From assembly GCA_022565635.1 (NCBI GenBank), contig JAIUMH010000002.1, positions 1-57,502 on the forward strand: a stretch of 57,502 bases of DNA. The letters are read 5' to 3'. The notes below the pieces were generated by a model. The model made no database searches and was not told the origin of the DNA. It saw only the letters and a list, made by a program, of their open reading frames with translations. The first letter of the stretch is position 1. Each line of letters opens with the position of its first letter. Shown one piece after another: positions 209 through 11,731 of this stretch. The position numbers were made by a program, and so were the translations under genes. This DNA comes from Flavobacteriaceae bacterium. Lineage in GTDB: Bacteria > Bacteroidota > Bacteroidia > Flavobacteriales > Flavobacteriaceae.

Positions 209-271
209 ATGAAAAGAATTGAATTAAAATTGTGGTGGTGGAATAAATTTACGTCAACAGTCGTGAATTGA
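209..271 (+). CDS. Putative trp operon leader peptide MKRIELKLWWWNKFTSTVVN
   Basis: ATG at 209, TGG TGG TGG at 233-241, TGA at 269-271. Lies directly upstream of an intrinsic terminator and trpE. Not in the supplied ORF track because of its size. Confidence 0.85.
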   Translation: MKRIELKLWWWNKFTSTVVN

Positions 272-296
272 TTCCTCATTGCGTTTATATAAAACC

Positions 297-333
297 AAAA
301 AAGGCTTGTCAAACACGACAAGCCTTTTTTTTT
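297..333 (+). terminator. Transcription attenuator (intrinsic terminator) upstream of trpE
   Basis: GGCTTGTC (303-310), loop AAACAC, GACAAGCC (317-324) followed by T9; A-run 297-302 extends the stem against the U tract. Confidence 0.88.
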
Positions 334-7168: not shown

Positions 7169-10100
7169 ATGAAAGCAAACTTTTATCTTCTCATCTTCTT
7201 TTTTTTCGCATTAATTAGTAACGGTCAAGATTTTAATTGGTTAGAAGATTTTGACGACATTGACGAGATTAATTCTTGTAACGCACAGCTTAGTATTAAC
7301 AATAATAATAATAATTTAAGTAATCATAGTAAAACATTGGTTATCTGTCCAGATGAATCAAATCCTGAATCGGATGCAACTGAAATTCAATTTTTAAATT
7401 GGAGTTTAAACACCAGTTTTGTTTCATTTACAATTTATGACGGTGATGATTCAACCGCTCCAATTTTGTATAATTTTACAGACAATACTATTTTACCAGA
7501 TTTTTATATCACCTCTTCCTTAGAAAATTCATCGGGATGTTTAACCATTCAAATAGAAACAGACCCTATTCCTAATATCATTAATATTGGTTTTGATATG
7601 ACCATTAGTTGTAGAGATGAATGTGCTGATTTTGATGTTTCTTTTTCGTATGATGGCATAGGTTTGTGTGACCAGGAATCAGAAAATATTTTTGAAGCTG
7701 GAACAGACTTTACAGTGTTTTCAAATGTAACTCAACTTACAGGAACTACTGTTGATGACTTAACTTATGAGTGGTATATTGATGATGAATTACAAGATTC
7801 TGAAACTACTTTTGTTACAGCCAATATTAATGAAGTAGGTTCCTATAATGGAGAATTACGTCTCATAAGTAATTTTGGCTTTTGTGAATCCATTCATGAA
7901 TTTGAATTTACTATTGGGGGTGACTTGATCAATACAAGTGATGCTGACGAGGATTTCACGTTAGAAGAATTAATTTCTGATGTATTAATCTCTGGTAATT
8001 GCGCCAATGTAAACAATATAGAATTACTAAATGGTTTATCATTCCATACCAACGAACATAGTATTGGCTATTTTGAAGCTGGTTGTAGCGATTTTCCTTT
8101 TACTGAAGGTATTGTTCTTGGTTCAGGTAGTATCAGTAATGTTACTGATGGAAATCAAAATGGTTCTAATCCTCCTTTTGGTTCAATATGGCAAGGTGAC
8201 CCAGATTTAGATAGTTTCGGACAATCTGCCAGCGGTAATTCAAACGCCACATCAAATGATGCCACAGCAGTAGAATTCTTCTTCAGCTCTTTTGAAGAAG
8301 AAATTGAATTCAATTACATCTTTGGTTCTTATGAATACCCTGGAATATTTGTTTGTAATTTTGCAGATATTTTTGCTTTTATTATTAGTGGACCTTATGA
8401 TGAAGATGGAAACTTAATCTCTGATACTTTTCCAGAAGGAACCCCTGGAGTGTTTCAAGACGAGTACTTATACAATCATGATGGTAATCCAAATAATGAT
8501 TTATTAAGCATTGATTTAGGAGGTCTAAATATTGCTACTTTTGAAGATGAAAATGGCAATTTAGTTCCAACAACTATTTCCAACATTCATGATTTCAGTG
8601 ACATAAACGGAGATTCATGTTTTGAAGGCTCATTGGGTGAATTCTATTTTCCTGAACTTTACAATTCAAATGAATTTAATTACCATACTTTAAATGGTGA
8701 GACAGTTCCTTTGACTGCTTCTGCTGAAGTAATTCCTTGTGAGCGATATAAACTAAAAATAGTGGTTGCTGATTGGCAAGATTCATTCTTTAATTCATTT
8801 GTATTCCTAGAAGGAGGTAGTTTTGAATTGGGGGCTAACTTAGGAGATGATGTGCTTTTTTCAGATCAAGATCCCGCTTTTGAAGGAGATGTAGTTACAC
8901 TATCGCCTTTTCAAAACGAATTAGACGACAATTGTGATTTGAATATTGAATGGTACAAAGACGGTGAACTATTAGAAGGATTTACTGAAACAACACTAGA
9001 TGTTACGGAAACAGGAACCTATGAAATTTTTATAGACGCAGGAGATTCTAATCTTTCTGGTTGTAACGACAATGATTCTGTTTTTGTTGAATTTATACCT
9101 GTTCCTAATCCAGATAATATTGAAAATTTAACTAATATTTTTATCTGTGATCCTGAAACACCAACTGTAAGTTTTGATTTTACAGTGAATGAAATTATTG
9201 CTACTCAAAATCAAAACCCGAATAATTTTAATGTCTCTTTTCACCTTTCAGAAACAGAAGCTGTAAATAATCTTAATCCTATTGAAGATATTTCGGATTA
9301 TCAAGTCAATGCTTCAGAATTAATTAATGAAAACGTAGAAATTTGGATTAGAGTAGAAGAAGCACTTACAGGAAATGCACAAACTTCAACTACCGCAAAT
9401 TTTGAAATAGGTATTATTGAAATTGATTTAGAAGAAGTTGATTTACCAGTAATTGCTTTGTGTAGTGAAGATGATACTGCAGTGGTTGCAGAATTTAACT
9501 TAACAGATAACGAAGAATTAATTTCAACTATCATTGGAACAACCACAGTAAATTACAGTTATTATACTTCGCTGGCGGATGCTACAAATGCTTCCAATAG
9601 CATTAGTGACCCTGAAACATATACCTCAAATGAAACTTCCGAAACTTTATTTATTCGTGTAGAAAGTGGATTTGACAATGATTGTTTTGATATTACCTCT
9701 TTTGATCTTGGTGTATTTGAAAATCCCACTCCAACTTCAGTTCAAGACTTAGAGGCTTGTGTTGAAAATGATGAAGCATTTATAGATTTAACTCAAAATA
9801 ATGAAACTTCAATTGGTCTTCCTAATCCTTCAATTGTTGAACTAGGCTACTACTTAACACAAGCTGAAGCTGAAAATCAAGTTGATGCTATTGAAGAAAT
9901 AGAAAACTTCTTAATTCCTCAAGGAATTGAAGAACTAGAAGTTTTTGTTCGCATTGAAAATAACGAAGAAAATGGGAATTGTACCGTAATTGAAAGCTTC
10001 TTAGTATCAACTGTTTCAATTGACACTAACGAAATTGAAAACCTTGAGGAGTGTGAATTAAATGAAGTAGAAGTATCATTTAATTTGAACCTGGTTCTCA

Positions 10101-11731
10101 ATGGGCTTTTTACTGATGAGGATAATGCCATTAATTATTCTACTTCATTTTATACTTCATTAAATGATGCAAATAATGAAGTAAACCAAATTGACAACCT
10201 AGATAATTATTCAAGTGTAGGAGAAGAAACTATTTATTTAAAGATAACAGATGATGCATCGACTAATGCTTGTTCAAAAATCTTAGATTTTGAATTGATA
10301 ATTGTACCAAAACCAATCATTGACTTTGAAGCTGTAAATCCTTCTGCCTGTTCAGAAGATGGGTTTTTTAGCAATTTTGATTTTAGCACCTTAGGAGAAA
10401 TAATGAGTATTGAAAGTGATTCTGACTACTCCTTTTCCTATCACCTTTCAGAAAGTGATGCCTCTAACAATGTAAATGCAATAAGTTTTCCTTTTGAAAA
10501 TACCAACGCATTTAATCAAACCATATACGTAAGAGTTTTTGATAATACAACGGGTTGCTTAGAGTTTGGTAGTTTTGAAATAGATGTAAACACAACTTTA
10601 AATATTGAAAATCCTGCAAATCTTGAAGCCTGTGCCAATAATGAAGAGATTTATGAGTATGATTTAACTACCATTGAAAATGAAGTCTTAGGAGGAATTT
10701 CAGCCTCAGAATTCAGCTTTTCATACTATCTAACTCAAGAAGATTTAGATAATCAGGTAAATCAAATTACAACTCCAACCAATTTCGAAACCAATGAAAT
10801 TAATCAACAGATATTTTTTGAAGTTACTAATGTTAGTGGTGAATGCAATTCTAACGGTGATTTCTTTTTAATCGAAAAAGAATTCCCAACAGTTAATTTA
10901 GATTTACCAATTATTAGTAATTGTGGTGAAGGAGGCTTTGCTGTGTTTAACTTTGAAAATTTAATTCCGCTGATCAACATTGAAGAAAATGTAGATTTAG
11001 AAATCAGTTTTCACGCTACCCAAACAGATGCTCAAGAAAACATTAATCCAATAATTGGAGATTACATCAATGAAGAACCTACCGAACAAATGGTATTTGT
11101 AAGAATTGAATTACTTGAAACAGAATGTACAAGTATTACAAATTTCACCATTCAAGTAAGTGATGATTTTGAAGTAAGCACCCCTAACCCACTTATAGGT
11201 TGCGACCCAGTTGGTTTTACTGAATTTGACTTAACCGAAGTAGAACCAGAATTATTCACTGGATTAAATTCGGAAAATTATCAAGTAAATTATTTTACAT
11301 CAGAACAAGACGCAGTAAATTCAGAAAACCCTATTGAAACACCTGAGGCTTTTGTGAATACAGTTGAAAACGGACAAACTGTATTTTTTAGAGTAGACGC
11401 CTTAGAGGGAGAGTGTTTTACCACAGGAAACTTTGATTTAATTTTTGACCCAGAAAGCGAAGAATGTGAAGATTTTAGTGTAGAAGAGTTTTTGTCTGCA
11501 CTTTATGTTTATCCTAATCCAGTAAAAAACATAGTAAATATTGACAATCAAAACCTTAATCAGATTGAATTATTGGAGATAGTTGATATGAATGGTAAGA
11601 AAATAATGAAGCAAAAAAACTTATCTAATTTTACCCAAATTGATTTAGGAATGTTAAGCAGTGGTTTGTATTTCTTACAAATACAAACAAAAGACGGTAT
11701 AAACACGTCTTTAAAGTTGATTAAAGAATAA
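7169..11731 (+). CDS. Secreted choice-of-anchor L / T9SS type A sorting domain protein with about 8 tandem modules
   Basis: Signal peptide, choice-of-anchor L-like segment (LISGNCANVNNIELL...), repeated 'Y/F-H/Y-x-(S/T)...A..N.(N/Q)xI ... I(Y/F)(V/I)R(V/I)' modules, C-terminal YVYPNPVKNIVNI...LIKE sorting domain. Confidence 0.85.
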   Translation: MKANFYLLIFFFFALISNGQDFNWLEDFDDIDEINSCNAQLSINNNNNNLSNHSKTLVICPDESNPESDATEIQFLNWSLNTSFVSFTIYDGDDSTAPILYNFTDNTILPDFYITSSLENSSGCLTIQIETDPIPNIINIGFDMTISCRDECADFDVSFSYDGIGLCDQESENIFEAGTDFTVFSNVTQLTGTTVDDLTYEWYIDDELQDSETTFVTANINEVGSYNGELRLISNFGFCESIHEFEFTIGGDLINTSDADEDFTLEELISDVLISGNCANVNNIELLNGLSFHTNEHSIGYFEAGCSDFPFTEGIVLGSGSISNVTDGNQNGSNPPFGSIWQGDPDLDSFGQSASGNSNATSNDATAVEFFFSSFEEEIEFNYIFGSYEYPGIFVCNFADIFAFIISGPYDEDGNLISDTFPEGTPGVFQDEYLYNHDGNPNNDLLSIDLGGLNIATFEDENGNLVPTTISNIHDFSDINGDSCFEGSLGEFYFPELYNSNEFNYHTLNGETVPLTASAEVIPCERYKLKIVVADWQDSFFNSFVFLEGGSFELGANLGDDVLFSDQDPAFEGDVVTLSPFQNELDDNCDLNIEWYKDGELLEGFTETTLDVTETGTYEIFIDAGDSNLSGCNDNDSVFVEFIPVPNPDNIENLTNIFICDPETPTVSFDFTVNEIIATQNQNPNNFNVSFHLSETEAVNNLNPIEDISDYQVNASELINENVEIWIRVEEALTGNAQTSTTANFEIGIIEIDLEEVDLPVIALCSEDDTAVVAEFNLTDNEELISTIIGTTTVNYSYYTSLADATNASNSISDPETYTSNETSETLFIRVESGFDNDCFDITSFDLGVFENPTPTSVQDLEACVENDEAFIDLTQNNETSIGLPNPSIVELGYYLTQAEAENQVDAIEEIENFLIPQGIEELEVFVRIENNEENGNCTVIESFLVSTVSIDTNEIENLEECELNEVEVSFNLNLVLNGLFTDEDNAINYSTSFYTSLNDANNEVNQIDNLDNYSSVGEETIYLKITDDASTNACSKILDFELIIVPKPIIDFEAVNPSACSEDGFFSNFDFSTLGEIMSIESDSDYSFSYHLSESDASNNVNAISFPFENTNAFNQTIYVRVFDNTTGCLEFGSFEIDVNTTLNIENPANLEACANNEEIYEYDLTTIENEVLGGISASEFSFSYYLTQEDLDNQVNQITTPTNFETNEINQQIFFEVTNVSGECNSNGDFFLIEKEFPTVNLDLPIISNCGEGGFAVFNFENLIPLINIEENVDLEISFHATQTDAQENINPIIGDYINEEPTEQMVFVRIELLETECTSITNFTIQVSDDFEVSTPNPLIGCDPVGFTEFDLTEVEPELFTGLNSENYQVNYFTSEQDAVNSENPIETPEAFVNTVENGQTVFFRVDALEGECFTTGNFDLIFDPESEECEDFSVEEFLSALYVYPNPVKNIVNIDNQNLNQIELLEIVDMNGKKIMKQKNLSNFTQIDLGMLSSGLYFLQIQTKDGINTSLKLIKE

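Follow-up and report, generated by a model that had tools for sequence, protein, structure and literature searches.

A probable ribosome-mediated transcription attenuator upstream of trpEGDCFBA in a Flavobacteriaceae bacterium, with a proposed antiterminator directed at the terminator apex

The region upstream of trpE in the window (the whole stretch of 57,502 nt that was analysed) most probably contains a ribosome-mediated transcription attenuator of the trpEGDCFBA genes, belonging to the Bacteroid-trp family and working by the apex-capture switch proposed below; the probability of this reading is put at about 0.88. An intrinsic terminator sits between a short trp leader ORF and trpE, the first gene, and a strand of the leader is complementary to the apex of this terminator (Table 1). 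The broader proposal, that the trp attenuators of Bacteroidota use an apex-capture antiterminator 17-20 nt from the Trp codons, act kinetically, differ in this from those of Proteobacteria and, in the genus, are carried on leaderless leader mRNA, is favoured with appreciably less assurance.

Table 1. Features of the trp leader region and of the downstream genes in the window
Feature	Start	End	Strand	Basis or remark
Candidate -33 element TTTG	173	176	+	Weak motif; position fits -35 to -32 from the predicted start
RF01692 Bacteroid-trp match (Rfam)	189	310	+	Model end inside terminator 5' arm
Bacteroidota sigma-A -7 box TAAATTTG	196	203	+	Motif against shuffles
Predicted start of transcription, near-leaderless (about 1 nt of 5' UTR)	208	208	+	Predicted from the -7 box position in F. 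psychrophilum (PMC9723704)
trp leader peptide ORF MKRIELKLWWWNKFTSTVVN	209	271	+	Sequence, comparison with relatives
Trp sensor, three Trp codons TGGTGGTGG	233	241	+	Run conserved among relatives
Anti-antiterminator strand AATTTACG	246	253	+	Pairs with 262-269 (P1); window fold
Antiterminator strand GTCGTG (P2)	260	265	+	Starts 18 nt past Trp run; comparison, folding
Inner antiterminator strand TTGAT	268	272	+	Partner GTCAA 308-312 when antiterminated (predicted); folding of the window alone
Intrinsic terminator	297	333	+	Stem 297-310/317-330, loop 311-316, T run 325-333; sequence
Terminator apex CACGAC	314	319	+	Target of P2, half loop and half 3' arm; pairing, folding
trpE	352	1746	+	TrpE domains placed by Pfam/NCBIfam
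trpG (glutamine amidotransferase)	1974	2576	+	
trpD	2583	3572	+	
trpC	3572	4360	+	
trpF	4360	4998	+	
trpB	5005	6183	+	
trpA	6180	6968	+	

The leader ORF was read directly from the sequence and is exactly as the earlier note on this DNA had described it, with three adjacent Trp codons between ATG209 and TGA271. Its strong GC stem-loop 31 nt past the stop codon was likewise found, the GC part beginning at position 303 within a perfect stem of 14 pairs whose 3' end overlaps a run of nine T residues, and the trpE ATG lies 18 nt past the T run, the distance given in the note. The mechanical trpE ORF call from TTG-268 does pass through the attenuator, as it had warned. The RNA of the leader region folded 5.65 sd below shuffles. 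No model in Pfam or NCBIfam matched the 20-aa leader peptide. Between the terminator and trpE a mini-ORF (ATG AAA CAT TTA TGA, 341-355) was observed, the stop of which overlaps the trpE ATG (ATGA); it may reflect chance or coupling.

Based on the Rfam covariance models, RF01692 was the sole family that reached its gathering score in the window (55.3 bits against 49, full model 1-131). The name of this family is "Bacteroidete tryptophan peptide leader RNA", and the window has its features, namely adjacent Trp codons in a short ORF that precedes trp genes. Bacteroid-trp is one of the 104 motifs surveyed by Weinberg et al. (2010, PMC2864571) and was mentioned for the trp operon of F. psychrophilum (PMC6414381). 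Since the match exceeds the curated score and the family appears in earlier literature, the element is of an already catalogued kind; the earlier note mentioned reports of such attenuators for some Bacteroidetes operons but underrated how well known the element is. The window element and RF01692 share the family, the place before trp genes, the Trp codons and the terminator's first half. Because the model stops at GGCUUGUC, short of the loop and 3' arm of the terminator, it cannot hold the pairing between leader and apex; if it were carried on across the apex, it would include the switch and might find members that it now misses. The proteobacterial Trp_leader gave no match at its gathering score in the window. 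Matches to RsaE, Thr_leader and Atu_C9 were discarded, being far below their gathering scores and reflecting the terminator hairpin.

The distribution of the leader was investigated in a comparison sample of about 240 relatives and in wider genome sets. RF01692 was found in 28/60 relatives and in 210/301 genomes sampled from Flavobacteriaceae, the family of the window, and in just 27/395 genomes sampled across the class. Parsing recognised a terminator together with a short WW(W) ORF at 167 of 181 loci, the other 14 having failed the parsing rule. Starting from TrpE searches, 80 named trpE loci were obtained from Bacteroidota groups that include Flavobacteriaceae, Cytophagales, Marinilabiliaceae, Saprospiraceae and Weeksellaceae; a short ORF with WW preceded the gene at 78 of them, almost always together with a terminator. 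Because 27/395 class genomes stand against 78/80 named loci, RF01692 detects part of a much wider set, and leader-peptide control of trp appears near-universal in the sampled Bacteroidota loci rather than confined to the RF01692 finds. These locus counts, together with the fold and the above-threshold RF01692 score, bear out the judgement that the arrangement is beyond chance.

Within the genus, the simple pattern TGGTGG...CGTGA...CTTGTC was matched in 20 of 27 genomes. A full TrpE was found in four of the seven pattern-negative genomes, each of which has a WWW leader whose terminator differs slightly; in the other three, one of them an 80%-complete assembly, the search gave no full-length TrpE match. 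Of the genus genomes with either a pattern match or a full TrpE, 24/24 thus have the leader, so that the TGG run and terminator, on whose conservation in close relatives the note had made its reading depend, are indeed conserved there. A tandem pair of WWW leader ORFs, each with its own terminator (MQKINTIWWWQSKL, MLNNKINNWWWPVLTQYAGQSCYNII), was observed at 102-340 of locus L027 (genome G037, same order) and would make a double attenuator.

Of 164 leaders, 151 have the promoter motif TAnnTTTG in the 45 nt that precede the leader ATG, compared with 3.6% of shuffles. The gap between the end of the -7 box and the leader ATG is 5 nt in the window, 4-5 nt in 16 of 19 members of the genus and often 16-20 nt outside it. 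In the F. psychrophilum transcription start map the -7 box occupies -12 to -5, and leaderless mRNAs make up only 5.5% (PMC9723704). With the gap of 4-5 nt found in the genus, a 5' UTR of 0-1 nt is therefore predicted, and the leader peptide mRNA there is predicted to be leaderless or near-leaderless. Outside the genus the leader ATG is preceded by A-rich sequence, with A at -3 in 73% of leaders where a 5' UTR is predicted, and an A-rich context before the start is favoured in F. johnsoniae (PMC6847099). Sites resembling sigma-70 promoters were no commoner than in shuffles and represent the wrong promoter type.

A leader segment of 6-8 nt, beginning 17-20 nt after the last Trp codon, is complementary to the terminator apex. 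The box TCGT[GA]A was present in 153 of 164 distinct leaders, in 144 at 17-19 nt past the Trp run. It was read in frame 0, 1 or 2 in 122, 28 and 3 leaders, and fell before, on or after the stop codon; because the box shifts frame and stop position in this way, it is the RNA sequence and its distance from the stall site that are kept, not the peptide. For example, ACGTC..GTCGTGA is read as TSTVVN or TSNVVK in the window and in locus L012 and as RQTS elsewhere.

Using one representative per distinct apex (77 in Bacteroidota), the mean energy of the leader-apex duplex was -11.8 kcal/mol compared with -6.8 kcal/mol for dinucleotide shuffles (z -23), and z was -15 for the 48 apices remaining without the common TCACGAC type; since the representatives are related, these figures rank the signal and are not exact probabilities. 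When apices were swapped among lineages (48 apices), the observed cognate mean was reached in 0 of 10000 permutations. Statistics were weaker when complementarity was first sought throughout the region after the Trp codons, because the apex was then not the sole target. Four examples compared revealed complete sequence turnover of the pairing between lineages, the leader:apex pairs being GTCGTGA:TCACGAC in Flavobacteriaceae, TCGTAAG:CTTGCGG in locus L159, AGATGGAC:GTTCATCT in Dyadobacter and GGGATGA:TCATCCC in Spirosoma. A compensatory change was identified in Faecalibacter, with GTTGGTTC:GAACCGAC in one locus (L253) and GTTGATTC:GAATCGAC in another (L256). The parts of the attenuator, their conservation, the covariation and the spacing all come from such comparison of sequences, and the phylum-wide covariation between leader and apex provides a concrete, mutable base-pairing model.

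Folding was carried out with the RNA under the ribosome masked, assuming the front edge of the ribosome at 15 nt from the first P-site base, a general value rather than one specific to this organism. With the ribosome on the third Trp codon of the window and the RNA 3' end at 318-324, an antiterminator (260-265:314-319 plus 268-272:308-312) was predicted which encloses the terminator apex, while with the ribosome at the stop codon the terminator alone formed; without a ribosome the anti-antiterminator strand paired with the box. The local fold of the P1 region had a z of -6.5 over 77 representatives. Among the 77 apices, with 4, 6 and 8 nt of the 3' arm emerged, apex-leader pairing was obtained in 73, 68 and 46 cases with the ribosome at the last Trp codon and in 2, 0 and 0 with the ribosome at the stop codon, a contrast that is partly built in because the latter ribosome is placed over the box. 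By computation, then, an antiterminator which involves the leader ORF and is mutually exclusive with the terminator was found. In the fully transcribed RNA of the window the terminator was more stable than the antiterminator, so control would have to be kinetic.

From these predictions we infer the direction of the switch, its ribosome footprints, its kinetic character, the start of transcription and the response to Trp as follows. RNA polymerase would start at the leader ATG or about 1 nt before it, with a ribosome following. Given ample Trp-tRNA, the ribosome would reach the stop codon (269-271) and cover GTCGTG, upon which the terminator would fold and transcription would end. With scarce Trp-tRNA it would stall on the TGG codons, where its front edge would cover AATTTACG and leave GTCGTG free to bind CACGAC as the apex emerges; TTGAT may also pair with GTCAA in this antiterminated state. 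The hairpin with its apex so captured could not nucleate in time, and polymerase would read into trpE.

The same attenuator logic could operate with an antiterminator of the E. coli kind on the 5' arm of the terminator, the apex pairing being a side product. In a few lineages (L175, L176, L178 and L179) a stop-proximal leader strand (e.g. GGCAGCC) does pair with the 5' arm, so that apex-directed and 5'-arm architectures coexist within one phylum, and in the window itself the inner antiterminator pairs reach GTC 308-310 of that arm. This is nevertheless unlikely as the general explanation, as excess leader pairing was absent from the lower 5' and 3' arms over the 77 apices (lower 5' arm z +2.1, against -23 for the apex). 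The best helix was centred within 3.5 nt of the loop centre in 63 of 74 cases, with a median of +1.5 nt for Bacteroidota trp; in E. coli thr, trp, his and phe, treated identically, it was centred at -7, -7, -3.5 and -5.5 nt, in the 5' arm, leu gave a weak helix only, and the terminator rule used found no ilv terminator. The window helix, at +3 nt, is not of the classical 5'-arm type. Somewhat less likely again is the view that the leader-apex pairing is a pseudoknot which aids termination, or a stability element, instead of an antiterminator. Geometrically, P2 and the lower terminator stem could form an H-type pseudoknot, and whether the pairing helps or hinders termination does not follow from covariation by itself; against this view, the box keeps a constant spacing from the Trp codons, just past a stalled ribosome and under a terminating one, a geometry that would provide Trp sensing only if a free box means antitermination.

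That the peptide itself acts, in trans or via translational coupling like Sinorhizobium peTrpL, finds a parallel in the trans activity of a Trp leader peptide known from other bacteria (PMC7298713), and is improbable here since outside WWW the peptide is unconserved, with a frame and stop that move against a conserved RNA. A spurious short ORF next to a hairpin that serves as a constitutive terminator or as the end of a transcript is scarcely credible, in view of the WW ORF before trpE at 78/80 named and 167/181 family loci and of the A-rich start context noted above (cf. PMC6847099). Ribosome-mediated attenuation, which the earlier note had proposed, is the best supported reading, to which the predicted antiterminator and promoter position are now added.

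Like E. coli trpL, the element combines Trp codons, a terminator and an alternative pairing, the ribosome position being expected to decide between them; unlike trpL, its predicted antiterminator aims at the loop instead of the 5' arm and its start is predicted to be near-leaderless. In mycobacteria, the cys genes link leader ORFs with leaderless reading of short ORFs. The leaderless reading predicted here would be a likeness to the leaderless small ORFs of mycobacteria (PMC4633059), and the window element would connect attenuation with near-leaderless translation in bacteria whose phylum lacks Shine-Dalgarno sites. Leader-peptide ORFs of Actinobacteria likewise contain runs of the regulated amino acid, whereas in the trp operons of that other phylum classical 5'-arm antiterminators were reported (PMC1262725). 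For structured 5' regions in F. psychrophilum, of the same bacterial family, leader-peptide attenuation of amino acid operons was proposed from transcription starts, in main-text passages which offer no structure for an antiterminator and leave trp unmentioned (PMC9723704). In the literature searched, no precedent was found for an apex-directed antiterminator in attenuators; the switching of Bacteroidota attenuators is previously undescribed there, as its combination of apex-directed antiterminator and fixed distance from the Trp codons seems to be.

Other leader peptides in the same genome (G000) were sought before hisG and ilvD. A second leader, MFNYLHMHHYSTALNGDE, was identified upstream of hisG (contig C160, locus L262); it has TACATTTG 5 nt before its ATG, again predicted near-leaderless, and the terminator reads CCCGTTTGAG(caat)TTCAAACGGG. 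In contrast to trp, this his leader has an antiterminator, GCTCAA, that is directed at the 5' arm, with its helix centre at -4 nt. No ilvD gene was found in this 99% complete genome, and since the same search was positive in 14/14 control genomes, the organism is probably a branched-chain amino acid auxotroph. Within the trp genes, the 227-nt gap between trpE and trpG (1747-1973) contains a GC-rich segment, CTACCGGCAAGCAGGCAGG (1822-1840), which looks repeat-like yet occurs once in the genome. Located 200 nt past trpA, at 7169-11731, is a gene for a repetitive protein of 1520 aa that looks secreted and whose C terminus resembles a sorting signal; the gene behind trpA in F. psychrophilum encodes an elastase and is co-transcribed (PMC6414381).
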